This document shows, piece after piece, positions 15,592 through 21,593 of a stretch of 32,745 bases of DNA. Numbering within the stretch: the stretch's first letter is position 1; each line of letters starts with the position of its first letter. Where the stretch lies: positions 1-32,745 of the forward strand of contig JBCDKH010000018.1 of assembly GCA_038746835.1 (NCBI GenBank), given 5' to 3'. The notes under the pieces were generated by a model. That model worked only from the letters and a program-made list of their open reading frames with translations. It was not told the DNA's origin and did not search any database. This DNA comes from Planctomycetota bacterium (GTDB lineage Bacteria > Planctomycetota > Phycisphaerae > Tepidisphaerales > Tepidisphaeraceae). The position numbers and the translations under genes are program-made.

Positions 15592-16896
15592 TCAGTCCGA
15601 TCCCTGCTCGCCACGAATCTTCTCGACGATCTCTGCAAGCTCTGACGCGGGGACGGCGTAGGTCTTCACGCGTCCGGCGCGGGCGATGTTGATACCCAGG
15701 AGATCGCCGCGGGCGTTGATGACGGGGCCGCCCATGCGATTCGGCGGAAGAACGGTGTCGTGCTGGATCACGGCGGGAAAGTCGCTGCTGCGTCGGCTGA
15801 ACGTCGAACCGCCGATGAAGTTCTGGAAGCGTGCTTGCTGTGACGCGCGGATGCCGCCGAGGCGAACTTCGACGTCGACGGGCAGTCCATCGCGAATGAG
15901 GCCAAGCTTCACACGATCGCCGGCCCGGAAGTTGTCGAGCTTGGCGTTGAGCTCTTGAATCTGTGTGATCGGCGTGCCCTCGACGGTCGTCACGAGGTCG
16001 CCAACCTTGACGCCCGCTTCTTGTGCAGGGCTGAGCGCAAAAACGCGATTGACGTCGAGCCCGCGCACCGCGTCGGTGATCGTCACGCCGAGCTGCCCAC
16101 GCTGAAGCCGCACCGGTCGGACAGCCGCTTCGCCGTCACGGACGATCGTCAGGTTGAAGACCGCACTGGGCCGATCGAGCCGAAGCTCGTTGACGAACTG
16201 CTGCCGGCTTTCGATGTCGACGTTGTCCCGTGCGATGATCAGATCGCCGGGACGAATGCCCGCCTGCCACGCCGCACCACCGCGACGGACCGATCGCACT
16301 GGCAGCCCGTCGATCGCCTGCGCCCGCGTGCCGATGCCCAGGCGAAGGCCCTCGCGTTCGATCTCGCGAAGCTTGCCGACGCTGACGTTGCCGATCGCGA
16401 GTGCTCCGCCGACGTCGGGTCCGAGGCCGTCCGGGTCGGGCTCGACACTGACGAGCCACGTCCCAGCCGCAGGCGGCGCGTCGGCGAGGTTGCCGAGTGG
16501 GACGAACGGGACGCGAAGGCCATTCGGCGCGGCCAGTTGCAGCAGGGCGATATCGAACTCGGCATCGGTGCCGATGAGGTCGAGTGCGAGAAAGCCGCGA
16601 TCGTTGTCCTTGGGGAACAGGTCGGCGGCAACGAGGCCGTTGAGCTCGCTGGCCTTGGTGACCAGCAGGCCGTCGTCCGAGACGAGCAGGCCGAGCGCGA
16701 CTTGCTCGCCATCGGCTTCGCCGCCGACACCGACGAGCGAGACCGTCGCCGCTGATGTGTTCGCGGCCGCCGAGGCGAACGCCTCGCGCAGGGCGGAGCT
16801 GTTCTTGACCAGCCCGTCCGACGTCTGAGCCGACGCCTGCACCGCCAGACCCGCGGCGGCAAAAGCGAAGAGAAACTTGGTCAGGTCCTTCAACAT
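15592..16896 (-). CDS. Catalytically dead HtrA-like protein with PDZ pair inserted in the protease fold
   Basis: The protein has 434 residues from the ATG at 16896 with a signal peptide (cut after about AQASAQ, residue 24). Residues 50-180 match the first half of a trypsin-like HtrA domain: LVSDDGLLVTKAS and AEFDIALLQL. The catalytic His is replaced (Ser83 in the AH position), while Asp115 is kept. Two PDZ domains follow (about 195-280 and 283-355). The second protease half comes after them: FPAVIQHDTVLPPNRMGGPV at 373-392, then LLGIN, where the GNSGGP serine is Met388. The fold is therefore interrupted by the PDZs and lacks two of three catalytic residues. A chaperone or regulatory partner of the active HtrA encoded 14 bases upstream is the likely role. 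Confidence 0.82.
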   Translation of the reverse strand: MLKDLTKFLFAFAAAGLAVQASAQTSDGLVKNSSALREAFASAAANTSAATVSLVGVGGEADGEQVALGLLVSDDGLLVTKASELNGLVAADLFPKDNDRGFLALDLIGTDAEFDIALLQLAAPNGLRVPFVPLGNLADAPPAAGTWLVSVEPDPDGLGPDVGGALAIGNVSVGKLREIEREGLRLGIGTRAQAIDGLPVRSVRRGGAAWQAGIRPGDLIIARDNVDIESRQQFVNELRLDRPSAVFNLTIVRDGEAAVRPVRLQRGQLGVTITDAVRGLDVNRVFALSPAQEAGVKVGDLVTTVEGTPITQIQELNAKLDNFRAGDRVKLGLIRDGLPVDVEVRLGGIRASQQARFQNFIGGSTFSRRSSDFPAVIQHDTVLPPNRMGGPVINARGDLLGINIARAGRVKTYAVPASELAEIVEKIRGEQGSD

Positions 16897-16910
16897 CGAA
16901 AATCGAAAGG

Positions 16911-18518
16911 TCAGCGTGCTTCCTCTAATTCCTGCAGTTCGTCCGCCGATGCCAGTTGCAGCCGGATGCGGCGTGCTTCCTCGCCTGGCGAGGCGACTTG
17001 GAGCGTGATCATGTCGCCAGGTCGGCCATTCGCGAGCGCCTGCTGAACCTGCCTGAAGTCGTAGATGCGTTGCCCGCGAAGCGAGACAATTCGGTCGCCA
17101 GGACGAATGCCCGCCTCGTCTGCGGGGCTGCCGGGCGTGACACCACCGATGACCGCTGCATCCCCGCCGCTGAAGCTGTTGTTCAGATTCACGCCCATCA
17201 ACCCGCGGTAGGGCCGACTCTGCGGCGCGGAGCGGTCCGAGCCGTCGCGATCGAAACCGGCGAGCGTGACCGACACGTCTCTGACAACGCCGCTCTGGTC
17301 GACAACGCGATACTGCACGCTCTGGCCAACGCGGAACGTTGGTCGCAGGGCGAGGAGATCGGTCTCGGACTCGATCTCTGCATCGCCGACTGCCACGATC
17401 CGATCGCCAATTCTGATCTCCGCCGTGGCAGCCGGTGAGCCGTCGACGACCATGCGGACGGTGGCACCGGGGCGACCGTCGCTGCCGACGCCCGAGCCGT
17501 CTCCTTCGCGAGAGCCGTCGTCGTTGCCGCGTGACGGTCCTAGGTCGAGCCGGATGCCGTCGTCGGCGACCTGCATGCGCATCCAATTCGGCAGGCGAAT
17601 TCCGCCCGTGTCACGCCCGACACGCATCGGCTGCCAGTTGTCGATGAACCGGTCGATCGGAATGTGCACGTTCCCGGCCAACACGTTGGTCCCGATCCGC
17701 TGCTGCCCGATGCGACTGTGGATGCCGACGAGGCGGCCCTCCAGATCGAACAGCGGCCCTCCCGAATCGCCACCGACGAGCGTGTTGTCGCTCTGGAGCA
17801 CGCTGTCCGTCACACGATTCAGCCGGCCGACGCGGACGACGGGCGGTCGCTGCTCCTGGAAGCCGGCGGGATGACCTGTTGCCACGGTCCACGTGCCGGT
17901 CTCCAAGTCGTCGCTCGTGCCAATCTCGGCAAAGTCGAACGGAACGGGCGCGTCGGAGTCATCGATGATGGCCATGCCGGCATCGAGCGATCGGACCCGG
18001 CCGAGCGTTCGTCCGCGGTAGGTCGTCCCGTCGGGCATGATGAACGCGACGGGCGAGTTGGGCTGATTGATGACGTGCGCTGCCGTCAGGACGAGGCCGT
18101 CGGGCGAGACGATGACGCCGCTCCCCTGGCCGTTGGACAGCCGCAGGGCGACGGTCGTCGGAATCGCCTTTTCGACCGTGGCCAGGATCTGCTGTTCGAG
18201 CTCCAGCACCTCTTCGACGGTGTCGGGCGTGTCCGTGAACCGCCGCTCACGCGACTGAACGGTCGGCAGCTCGACCTCGTCCTCGGCGGCCACCGTGGCG
18301 GTGACAGCCTTCAGCGCCGCCTTGCTCTGAACCTGCCGGGCGGTCGCGGACATCAGCACCAGTGCGAGTGCGAGCCCCATCGGTACCGCCGCGACGACGA
18401 AGCCCACGACCAATCGCCCGAGGAACGCGACGACAAGACCGTTGGACGCACGCGTTCGCGGCGTTGGCTCTTGGGAGAAGGCGTGACGTCCTTCCGAAGC
18501 TTTCTGCGTCGGCCACAT
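16911..18518 (-). CDS. Membrane-anchored HtrA/DegP-type serine protease with two PDZ domains
   Basis: The protein has 535 residues from the ATG at 18518. The frame is open to 18665, but that would overlap the divergent radical SAM gene, and the ATG at 18548 is an alternative. One N-terminal membrane segment (residues 27-57) is followed by a long linker and a trypsin-like domain with an intact triad: His148 (LVLTAAHVIN), Asp179 (SLDAGMAIID) and Ser252 (VGGDSGGPL). Two PDZ domains follow: one with GSPAATAEIRIGDRIVAVG, the other with GSPADEAGIRPGDRIVSL. A poly-Gly/Asp linker separates the protease and the first PDZ core. The protein is a likely extracytoplasmic quality-control protease and heads an operon with the pseudo-HtrA gene. 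Confidence 0.9.
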   Translation of the reverse strand: MWPTQKASEGRHAFSQEPTPRTRASNGLVVAFLGRLVVGFVVAAVPMGLALALVLMSATARQVQSKAALKAVTATVAAEDEVELPTVQSRERRFTDTPDTVEEVLELEQQILATVEKAIPTTVALRLSNGQGSGVIVSPDGLVLTAAHVINQPNSPVAFIMPDGTTYRGRTLGRVRSLDAGMAIIDDSDAPVPFDFAEIGTSDDLETGTWTVATGHPAGFQEQRPPVVRVGRLNRVTDSVLQSDNTLVGGDSGGPLFDLEGRLVGIHSRIGQQRIGTNVLAGNVHIPIDRFIDNWQPMRVGRDTGGIRLPNWMRMQVADDGIRLDLGPSRGNDDGSREGDGSGVGSDGRPGATVRMVVDGSPAATAEIRIGDRIVAVGDAEIESETDLLALRPTFRVGQSVQYRVVDQSGVVRDVSVTLAGFDRDGSDRSAPQSRPYRGLMGVNLNNSFSGGDAAVIGGVTPGSPADEAGIRPGDRIVSLRGQRIYDFRQVQQALANGRPGDMITLQVASPGEEARRIRLQLASADELQELEEAR

Positions 18519-18628
18519 ACCGTCGAAGAGTAACCGGCGGCGGCCCATCTGGTTGCGGGCAAAATGTGCGAAATGTGTGTCCGCCCGAAAAGAACGCCTC
18601 AAGGCAGTCGGCGTATGTTTGGTAGCTG

Positions 18629-19918
18629 ATGCCCGCCGTCGCCGCGACATCTGGTACCACCCCACGCCGCCAGGCCACCGCGGTGGTCGAGCGGGAAGAG
18701 GTCAGCTTCGACAAGGTGCGCGTCAAGCTGGCCGTCCTGGCCGATGCGGCGAAGTACGACGCCTCATGCAGCTCCAGCGGCATCAAGCGCAAAGGACGCG
18801 ACGACGGACTCGGCAGTGCCAACGGCACCGGCATCTGCCACAGCTACACGCCCGACGGCCGATGCGTGTCGCTCCTGAAGATTCTGCTGACCAACTACTG
18901 CATCTACGACTGCCAGTACTGCGTCAACCGCGTCAGCAGCGACGTCGAGCGACAGCGATTCAGCGTGGAAGAGGTCGTCCAGCTCACGCTCGAGTTCTAC
19001 CGCCGCAACTACATCGAAGGGCTGTTCCTCAGCAGCGGCATCATCAAGAGCGTCGACTACACGATGGAGCAGCTCATCGAGGTCGCCAGGCGGCTTCGCG
19101 TGGAGCACAAGTTCCGCGGCTACATCCATCTCAAGGCGGTGCCCAAGGCGTCGCCTGAGCTGATGGCCAAGGCAGGTCTCTACGCCGATCGGCTCAGCGC
19201 GAACATCGAGCTGCCGACGGATGGCGATTTGAAACAGCTGGCCCCTGAGAAAAAGCTGGTCGATGCCGAAGACACGATGTCCGACATCAAGGGCGGCATC
19301 GACGAAGCCAAGGCCGACCGCAAGGCCCCGCGTTTCGCTGCGGCCGGGCAGTCGACGCAGATGATCGTCGGTGCCACGCCAACGCCCGACCGCGAGATCA
19401 TCAAGACCGCCGGCAGCCTCTACAAGCGTCACGACCTCCGCCGCGTCTATTACACGGCCTTCAGCCCGATTCCATACGGCGACGCCCGTCTGCCCCTCGT
19501 CCAGCCGCCGCTGGTTCGAGAGCATCGGCTGTATCAAAGCGACTGGCTGATGCGGTTCTACGGGTTCCGCGCCGAGGAGATCACGACGCCCGAGCAGCCG
19601 ACGCTGGACCTAGAGATCGACCCGAAGCTGGCGTGGGCGCTGCGGAATCGGCACCTGTTCCCCGTCGACCTGAACCGGGCCGCGAAGTGGCGACTCCTCC
19701 GCGTCCCGGGTCTGGGGCAGCGGACGGTGCAGCGTTTGCTCCGCGTGCGACGACACCACGCGATTCGCCTGGACGACCTGAGTCGGCTCAACATCCCGAT
19801 GAGAAAGGTCCGCCCCTGGGTGACGGCCGTCGATCACAACCCCGCGACGCGGCTCCTGGACGATGACGCGCTCCGCGATCGATTCGTTCCAAAGCAGAAG
19901 CAGCTCAGTCTGTTTTGA
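18629..19918 (+). CDS. Putative DNA modification/repair radical SAM protein (TIGR03916 type) with C-terminal clamp motif
   Basis: The protein has 429 residues. The radical SAM cluster motif CxxxCxxC is Cys91, Cys95 and Cys98 (NYCIYDCQYC), preceded by the family-specific CSSSGIKRKG and GICHSYTPDGRCVSLLK. The C-terminal part has a helix-hairpin-helix-like VPGLGQRTVQRLL, a DNA-binding feature. These match the family annotated as a putative DNA modification/repair radical SAM protein, which is normally paired with a partner related to uracil-DNA glycosylase. No such partner is in this window. The last five residues, QLSLF, equal the consensus beta-sliding-clamp-binding motif. The reaction is unknown. 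The start at ATG 18629 is divergent from the HtrA gene. Confidence 0.88.
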   Translation: MPAVAATSGTTPRRQATAVVEREEVSFDKVRVKLAVLADAAKYDASCSSSGIKRKGRDDGLGSANGTGICHSYTPDGRCVSLLKILLTNYCIYDCQYCVNRVSSDVERQRFSVEEVVQLTLEFYRRNYIEGLFLSSGIIKSVDYTMEQLIEVARRLRVEHKFRGYIHLKAVPKASPELMAKAGLYADRLSANIELPTDGDLKQLAPEKKLVDAEDTMSDIKGGIDEAKADRKAPRFAAAGQSTQMIVGATPTPDREIIKTAGSLYKRHDLRRVYYTAFSPIPYGDARLPLVQPPLVREHRLYQSDWLMRFYGFRAEEITTPEQPTLDLEIDPKLAWALRNRHLFPVDLNRAAKWRLLRVPGLGQRTVQRLLRVRRHHAIRLDDLSRLNIPMRKVRPWVTAVDHNPATRLLDDDALRDRFVPKQKQLSLF

Positions 19919-19924
19919 GTCGAG

Positions 19925-20548
19925 CTATCTATAGCTCATCACTTCCTCGATGAGCCGCTGTGCAAACGCAGCCTTGTCCGAGGAAGGCACGTCGACGCTG
20001 CTGCCGTCGTGTCGGAAGATCGTCGCGGCCACTTCGTGGGCGTCGAGCGTCGCGATCGGGTTGTAGACGAGCAGATCGCAGTTCTTGCGGACGAGCTTTT
20101 CACGTGCCCGCCCGCGTGCCTCCGGCGTGTCGTCGTCGAGGCTGAACCCGACGAGCGTCTGATCCGCCCGCTTGCAAGCACCGGCGGCAGCGAGGATGTC
20201 CTCGGTCGGCTCCAGTTCCAGCGTCATCCGGGCCCCGCGTCGCAGTTTCTGATCGCTCACCACCTTTGGCCGAAAGTCCGCCACCGCCGCCGCCATCACG
20301 AGTGCGTCGAACGTCGGCCAGCGTTCCAAGACCGCGTCGTGCATCTGGCGCGTCGTCTCGACACGGACCGCCTCGACGTTCTTCGGCAACGCCACACTCA
20401 CGCTCCCGGCAATCAGCGTCACCTCATGCCCCGCCTCCACCGCCGCCGCGGCGATGGCGACGCCCATCCGCCCGCTCGACCGGTTGCCGAGGTAGCGAAC
20501 CGCATCCACAGGCTCCCGCGTCCCGCCGGCGGTGATGAGGGTCTTCAC
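19925..20548 (-). CDS. coaB: Phosphopantothenate--cysteine ligase (CoaB, stand-alone)
   Basis: CoaB joins 4'-phosphopantothenate to cysteine in coenzyme A synthesis. The protein has 207 residues, the size of the C-terminal half of bifunctional CoaBC. It opens with LITAGGTREPVDAVRYLGNRSSG, the nucleotide-binding signature, and contains AAAVADFRP and the KLVRKNCDLLVYNP segment. It starts with GTG and overlaps the preceding zinc-ribbon gene as GTGA, implying translational coupling. The CoaC half is two genes upstream, so the usual CoaBC fusion is split. It is convergent with the radical SAM gene, 6 bases apart. Confidence 0.93.
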   Translation of the reverse strand: MKTLITAGGTREPVDAVRYLGNRSSGRMGVAIAAAAVEAGHEVTLIAGSVSVALPKNVEAVRVETTRQMHDAVLERWPTFDALVMAAAVADFRPKVVSDQKLRRGARMTLELEPTEDILAAAGACKRADQTLVGFSLDDDTPEARGRAREKLVRKNCDLLVYNPIATLDAHEVAATIFRHDGSSVDVPSSDKAAFAQRLIEEVMSYR

Positions 20549-20985
20549 AGGCCGACCTTATTGCCGCACTCCGGACACACGCCGCTTGCGTTGCCGGTGA
20601 GGTTGTAGCCGCAGGAGTCGCAGTGACGTGCGAGACGGCTTCTTACTGCACGAGTGATTCTCGGTCTCGCGAGTGTTTGCAGTGCCCACACGGTGACGAG
20701 CACGATCGTCATCAGGCAAAGAACCAGCGCGATGCCATGATCCAACCAGCTTGGCAGGAAGGCCTCGACAACTCCCAACACCGTCAGACTGCCTGAAACC
20801 GCCAACAGCATCGAAATGCAAAGGTAGTTTCGTATCCACCAGGGGCACGTCTCTACGGCCCTTCGATAGATGGCTTCGCGTCTTGAACGGGGGAGCGATT
20901 GAAGCTCGGGGAACATCTTCGCAAGCTTGTCGGGCCTCGGAACCAAGAGCAGCCAAGGCGAACGTTGTATGGCGTCGAGCCTCAC
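20545..20985 (-). CDS. Two-pass membrane protein with C-terminal zinc ribbon
   Basis: The protein has 146 residues. Membrane segments lie at about 54-76 and 82-104. The tail has four cysteines in CDSC...CPEC (Cys122, 125, 137, 140), a zinc-ribbon form often seen in planctomycete membrane proteins. The function is unknown. It starts with GTG overlapping the coaC stop (GTGA) and ends overlapping the coaB start the same way, so it is embedded between the two halves of the CoA pathway enzyme. That placement is the only hint of function. Confidence 0.75.
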   Translation of the reverse strand: MRLDAIQRSPWLLLVPRPDKLAKMFPELQSLPRSRREAIYRRAVETCPWWIRNYLCISMLLAVSGSLTVLGVVEAFLPSWLDHGIALVLCLMTIVLVTVWALQTLARPRITRAVRSRLARHCDSCGYNLTGNASGVCPECGNKVGL

Positions 20986-21593
20986 CGCGATGATCTGGGA
21001 AGACGATCTTCAGGTGCTTGAGCACCCAGGCCAATTGCCGCTGCTGCTGTCAAGACAGACAGCGTGTCTGCCAGCCGGCCCGCCCCGTCGTTCCGACAAG
21101 CCAGCCACCCGCTCTCCGGCCCGACAAAGCCAACGCCGCGAGCCTTCAGCTTCTCGACCGCCTCCTGAGTAGCGGGGTTGGCCCACATGCGGTCGTTCAT
21201 GCCGGGGGCCATGAGGATCGGGCAGGCGGCGGCGGCGACGAGGAGGCTGACGACGTCGTCGCACAGGCCCGCCGCGCACTTGCAGAGCAGGTGCATCGTG
21301 GCCGGGGCGACGATCATCAGATCGGCCTGTTCCGTCAGCTTGATGTGCTGCGTGTCGGCCGCGTCGACCTGGTTCCAGATGCCCGTGTGCACCGGCCGCT
21401 GCGTGATCGCTTCGAACGTCAGCGGTGTGACGAACTTCTGGGCGGCGTCGGTCATGGCGACGGTCACGCCGACGTCCGCCTGGACGAGTTTGCTGACGAG
21501 GTCGCACACCTTGTAAGCCGCAATCCCGCCACCGACGCCGACGACGATTTCCTTGCCGGCGAGCGATGAGAGGTCGGGCGGAGCGTCGGACAC
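20982..21593 (-). CDS. coaC: Phosphopantothenoylcysteine decarboxylase (CoaC, stand-alone)
   Basis: This flavoprotein decarboxylates 4'-phosphopantothenoylcysteine in coenzyme A synthesis. The protein has 203 residues. GVGGGIAAYK at the N-terminus binds FMN, His83 in TQHIKL is the catalytic base, APGMNDRMW is the PxMNxxMW motif, and Cys166 in GWLACRNDGAGRL is the substrate-clamp cysteine. All key residues are present. It is the first of three overlapping genes. Its 5' end overlaps by 28 bases the longest frame of the divergent mnmE gene. Confidence 0.94.
   Translation of the reverse strand: MSDAPPDLSSLAGKEIVVGVGGGIAAYKVCDLVSKLVQADVGVTVAMTDAAQKFVTPLTFEAITQRPVHTGIWNQVDAADTQHIKLTEQADLMIVAPATMHLLCKCAAGLCDDVVSLLVAAAACPILMAPGMNDRMWANPATQEAVEKLKARGVGFVGPESGWLACRNDGAGRLADTLSVLTAAAAIGLGAQAPEDRLPRSSR

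Follow-up and report, generated by a model that had tools for sequence, protein, structure and literature searches.

The window, that is, the whole stretch of 32,745 nucleotides that was analysed, contains two consecutive genes for HtrA-type proteins on the minus strand (Table 1): an HtrA protease with an intact catalytic triad and, located downstream with 14 nt between the stop codon of the first gene and its own ATG, a gene whose product, referred to here as pseudo-HtrA, appears to be a catalytically inactive relative. The coordinates given for pseudo-HtrA in the initial annotation are correct, and its description of an intact HtrA immediately preceding the gene agrees with this arrangement. 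The partner is a genuine member of the HtrA/Deg family. Its catalytic residues are numbered from the beginning of the open frame, and its true start is probably located downstream of the GTG found there. Neither protein reaches the TIGR02037 cut-off of 416.2 bits: the partner scores 158.5 and pseudo-HtrA 113.6, and the latter reaches no NCBIfam HtrA cut-off. An apparent shortening of loop L3 in the partner by about nine residues was dropped as a candidate feature; in the alignment with MucD, the loop is only about two residues shorter and its Arg is kept. The divergently transcribed neighbour of the pair (18629-19918, plus strand) encodes a putative radical-SAM-like protein that ends in a helix-hairpin-helix tail. 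CoaBC seems to be split into separate minus-strand genes for its phosphopantothenoylcysteine synthase and decarboxylase halves (19925-20548 and 20982-21593), with a small gene between them.

Table 1. Features of pseudo-HtrA and its partner HtrA in the window
Feature	Coordinates	Strand	Basis or remark
Pseudo-HtrA gene (P0001)	15592..16896	minus	434 aa + stop; 104 homologues share the architecture
Putative signal peptide, residues 1-24 (MLKDLTKFLFAFAAAGLAVQASAQ)	16825..16896	minus	Sequence reading
N-terminal part of the split protease fold, about residues 33-177	16366..16800	minus	Pfam Trypsin_2, AF2 model, VIA alignment
Ser83 at the catalytic His position (TKASEL)	16648..16650	minus	Alignment with homologues
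Asp115, catalytic Asp position, retained	16552..16554	minus	Alignment with homologues
PDZ1, first inserted PDZ, about residues 185-266	16099..16344	minus	Pfam PDZ_6 at 200-253
PDZ2, inserted PDZ, residues 267-346	15859..16098	minus	Pfam PDZ_2, E 7.3e-24
C-terminal part of the split protease fold, residues 357-428	15613..15828	minus	Sequence and model
His379 of the near-invariant QHD motif	15760..15762	minus	Conservation in homologues
Met388 at the catalytic Ser position	15733..15735	minus	Alignment with homologues
Partner HtrA open frame, intact H197/D228/S301 and two C-terminal PDZ domains	16911..18665	minus	Sequence, Pfam

In pseudo-HtrA, a probable N-terminal signal peptide is followed by a protease domain in two pieces. 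Pfam recognizes Trypsin_2 in two stretches with two PDZ domains between them; the best stretch, residues 69-172, covers positions 3-99 of the 144-position profile. Residues 370-405 align with the serine-loop region of DegP, from E193 onwards. The C-terminal protease part holds this pseudo serine loop together with the motif GINIARAGR, and the chain stops after the barrel, a Pfam match to the TauE transporter domain being absent from pseudo-HtrA. At the triad positions, His and Ser are replaced by Ser83 and Met388, as the initial annotation had noted, and Asp115 is retained. PDZ2 is the inserted domain common to the whole family, and PDZ1 is the extra one relative to most homologues.

An AlphaFold2 (AF2) model of pseudo-HtrA was built on an alignment of 71 homologues. 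The mean pLDDT of the model is 81.9. Most of PDZ2 and of the protease parts exceeds 90, whereas PDZ1 scores low, because few relatives possess this domain. Foldseek alone returned TM values of 0.2-0.25 and left the insert unbridged, and VIA-align was used instead. With the latter, 184 of the 198 residues of DegS-deltaPDZ (2rce) were aligned to the model, with a Z of 22.2 and an rmsd of 2.9. This alignment spans residues 34-430, and therefore the N-terminal half and the C-terminal segment complete one barrel in the model, the point that the initial annotation had proposed to check by structure prediction. Structures of AlgW and DegS gave Z values of about 22, and those of MamO 21.5 and 21.3. 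As modelled, pseudo-HtrA is a single HtrA-type protease fold, composed of residues 34-177 and 357-430, with two PDZ domains inserted between these stretches.

Relatives were collected by scanning for the motif [VIL]G[IL]NIARAG with one genome per species, which returned 229; the architecture and residue counts refer to the 104 pseudo-HtrAs collected. Every one of these sequences has the order N-terminal part, PDZ, C-terminal part, which supports the position initially assigned to the serine-loop segment, behind both PDZ domains. Two inserted PDZ domains, as in the window, were found only in L089 within this set and in the fused protein L167. The loss of the triad is shared by the homologues: Ser occupies the catalytic His position in 101 of 103, the Asp is retained in all 104 that cover the position, and the nucleophile position (n = 105) is occupied by Cys in 88, Met in 10, Ile in 4 and Asn, Ala and Val in one each, and by Ser in none. 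Nearly all partner HtrAs retain the complete triad. Residues K81, D115, D380, G389 and R406 are conserved at 100%, and A405 is invariant or nearly so. Within the QHD motif, His379 is present in 97% of the homologues and the next Asp in 100%; H379 is the only near-invariant His of the family, and no di-histidine pair was identified among the near-invariant residues. The inserted PDZ retains the LGV carboxylate-loop motif in the alignment. The invariance of the cleft residues indicates that the pseudo-active site is constrained although catalysis has been lost; judging from its residues, the family is catalytically dead. The rebuilt, inactive protease scaffold proposed in the initial annotation is thus upheld in the sequence, in the predicted structure and in more than 100 relatives. 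In the phylogenetic tree, the pseudo-HtrAs form one clade (support 1.0) and the partners another (0.998), and the few rows labelled 'other' within the partner clade are partner copies from shorter loci. An alignment that combined fused, live and dead rows placed the dead ones on the live half and was left unused.

HtrA proteases are a textbook case of allostery: binding to the PDZ domain is relayed through loop L3. In the pseudo-HtrA homologues, the alignment shows the strand GVVSVxxR, the PDZ directly after it and the resumption of the protease fold at xFPxVxQHD. The residue just before the inserted PDZ is Arg in 82 of 103 homologues and Leu176 in the window protein; from the alignment and the known DegS sequence, we take this Arg to correspond to the L3 residue Arg178 of DegS. 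Since this Arg precedes the PDZ and the C-terminal segment resumes at DegP E193, the insertion point, read from the alignments, is the position of HtrA loop L3, and it is constant across all 104 collected pseudo-HtrAs. In DegS, L3 spans residues 176-189, senses the PDZ ligand and passes the signal on to LD, a loop of the adjacent subunit (PMC11642142), and in DegP, L3 likewise relays the PDZ signal (PMC4434178).

The live-plus-dead HtrA pair is widespread in Planctomycetota and Verrucomicrobiota. Pseudo-HtrA matches at E 1e-40 were found in 105 of 394 Planctomycetota genomes and, in the phylum to which the Verrucomicrobiales MAG L108 belongs, in 16 of 195; several of the matching genomes in the latter phylum have a size of 2.7-3.3 Mb and carry two copies each. 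Among the loci judged, 74 have a live HtrA gene immediately ahead of the dead one and in the same orientation, and 18 encode both proteins in one open frame. Seventeen of these 18 are clear fusions; L122, which has a signal-peptide-like stretch between its halves despite the single open frame, is doubtful and was left uncounted. Four loci are unpaired: one of them has too little upstream sequence to be judged, and at the other three (L074 and L079, which are near-identical, and L102) no live HtrA lies beside the dead one; the genome of L074 has partner-type HtrAs elsewhere. Of 14 extra regions with long frames, 13 encode single polypeptides comprising a live protease, the pseudo halves and the inserted PDZ, and one is an ordinary pair. 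The fused forms are distributed over about six clades of the tree and account for 5 parsimony changes, compared with 26 when the labels are shuffled. The live protease lacks a PDZ in one Verrucomicrobiota pair and in 17 of the 18 single-frame cases, where the sole PDZ left is therefore that of the dead partner. The co-divergence of live and dead proteins (r = 0.72, permutation maximum 0.18) is a mirror-tree correlation of the kind that common vertical descent also yields. No further conserved neighbour is common to the loci, where only lineage synteny was found, and therefore the pair is the unit. The paired active/inactive system suggested in the initial annotation, which had pointed to other Planctomycetota as the place to look for the same genes, is strengthened by the adjacent loci and the fusions; the regulator or chaperone role that it attached to the pair is one that we infer.

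Several fused forms have unusual compositions. L163 (G137:C12:153000-160000) contains two different live-plus-dead fusions in tandem, and the same genome also has a separate unfused pair. In L166 (G546:C1:7409500-7414000; 837 aa), two HtrA-like domains are located ahead of the pseudo-HtrA part, the first without the usual His motif and the second with GMSGG instead of GDSGG, so its protease part looks degenerate. The fusion L168 (G687:C1:2287500-2292500) has an extra C-terminal part of about 350 residues. Among the unfused forms, L189 and L190 (G716:C1) are two HtrA/pseudo-HtrA pairs in a Verrucomicrobiota genome of 2.65 Mb, one of them with a PDZ-less live protease. A model of a fused live-plus-dead protein had a pTM of 0.58, which does not establish the arrangement of the domains.

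With slightly better than even confidence, we favour the reading that the dead HtrA paralogue serves the co-encoded live HtrA as an obligate subunit for regulation or substrate sensing. Both proteins would be exported and would join, probably in a mixed HtrA oligomer, and the ligand of the inserted PDZ would be a C-terminal peptide from an envelope protein that is misfolded or damaged. Because this PDZ sits in L3, which in DegS signals to the LD loop of the neighbour, a bound ligand would switch on, restrain or feed the live neighbour. MamO, itself a dead HtrA, offers a precedent, as it activates proteolysis that depends on MamE (PMC4794232). A specific form of the proposed mechanism can be put forward only tentatively: a two-part PVC HtrA, in which the dead subunit senses through the PDZ in L3 and the live, sometimes PDZ-less, subunit cuts, the signal crossing the chains by an L3-to-LD route like DegS trans activation but between different subunits. 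Against the fit of the window protein to such a relay, the L3 Arg is replaced by Leu176. The conserved Cys in most members of the family could serve other chemistry.

Alternatively, the dead HtrA might act as an adaptor or holdase whose PDZ and intact cleft bind unfolded proteins solely in order to deliver or hold them, with no allosteric effect on the live HtrA. The conservation of cleft residues despite the lost catalysis, the LGV motif retained in the PDZ and the chaperone activity of DegP protease domains (PMC4434178) are consistent with this role, which we nevertheless regard as rather unlikely, as it leaves unexplained the location of the PDZ in signalling loop L3 rather than after the barrel. 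It is improbable that the protein is not dead and operates as a different hydrolase or a redox enzyme with a Cys nucleophile and an unusual base (Lys81, Ser83, Asp115, His379): while Cys prevails at the nucleophile position (88 of 105) and K81, S83, D115, H379, D380 and R406 are nearly invariant, the Met of the window protein and the Met, Ile, Val, Ala or Asn of others occur in the same surroundings, which argues that Cys is not essential. Still less probable is a metal-binding pseudoprotease of the MamO kind. MamO is a dead HtrA whose partner, MamE, is live; it activates proteolysis by way of MamE without catalysis of its own and binds metal (PMC4794232), and its structures align well to the model (Z values above); however, H379 stands alone where a di-histidine pair would be sought among the near-invariant residues, and MamO has no PDZ insert. 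A functionless decaying duplicate or a mis-assembly, which the absence of the catalytic residues might suggest, is refuted almost beyond doubt by conservation, as 104 homologues in two phyla share one architecture, invariant residues and a single clade with support of 1.0.

Dead HtrAs are already known, as are HtrAs in general and S41 proteases with a PDZ insertion, and three known systems come closest to pseudo-HtrA. Like the HtrA/Deg proteases (DegP, DegQ, DegS and AlgW; MEROPS S1C), it has a trypsin-like fold, PDZ domains and a probable export signal; in those proteases, however, the PDZ follows the barrel and the His-Asp-Ser triad is present, whereas in pseudo-HtrA the PDZ lies inside the barrel at L3 and both His and Ser are lost. 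MamO and MamE of magnetotactic bacteria resemble the window pair in being a live HtrA and a dead paralogue encoded near each other. Unlike pseudo-HtrA, MamO has kept its His, and its protease domain is continuous, with no PDZ insert, and has a TauE domain after it (PMC4794232); it is also not fused with MamE, whereas fusions of pseudo-HtrA and live HtrA exist. Proteases of the CTP/Prc type (S41) similarly have a regulatory PDZ inserted within the protease domain, but their catalytic fold is unrelated and the enzymes are active. In the portion of the open-licence PMC literature that was covered, no description was found of a PDZ-inserted dead HtrA paired or fused with a live HtrA, and the live-plus-dead pair looks like an undescribed way of regulating an HtrA protease. 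In two phyla, evolution has placed a PDZ in L3 of the dead copy, which has stayed together with a live HtrA or become joined to it in one chain. If the dead copy is indeed a regulatory or sensing subunit, sensing would be separated from cutting, and the trans part of HtrA activation would become directly testable. Standard annotation conceals the pseudo-HtrAs, since Pfam presents the family as a partial Trypsin_2 plus PDZ.

The window pair (15592-18665, minus strand) also differs from nearly all its relatives in the number of PDZ domains, with two in each member of the pair where the relatives have one in each. The doubling of the PDZ in both members may have occurred together in the lineage of the window.
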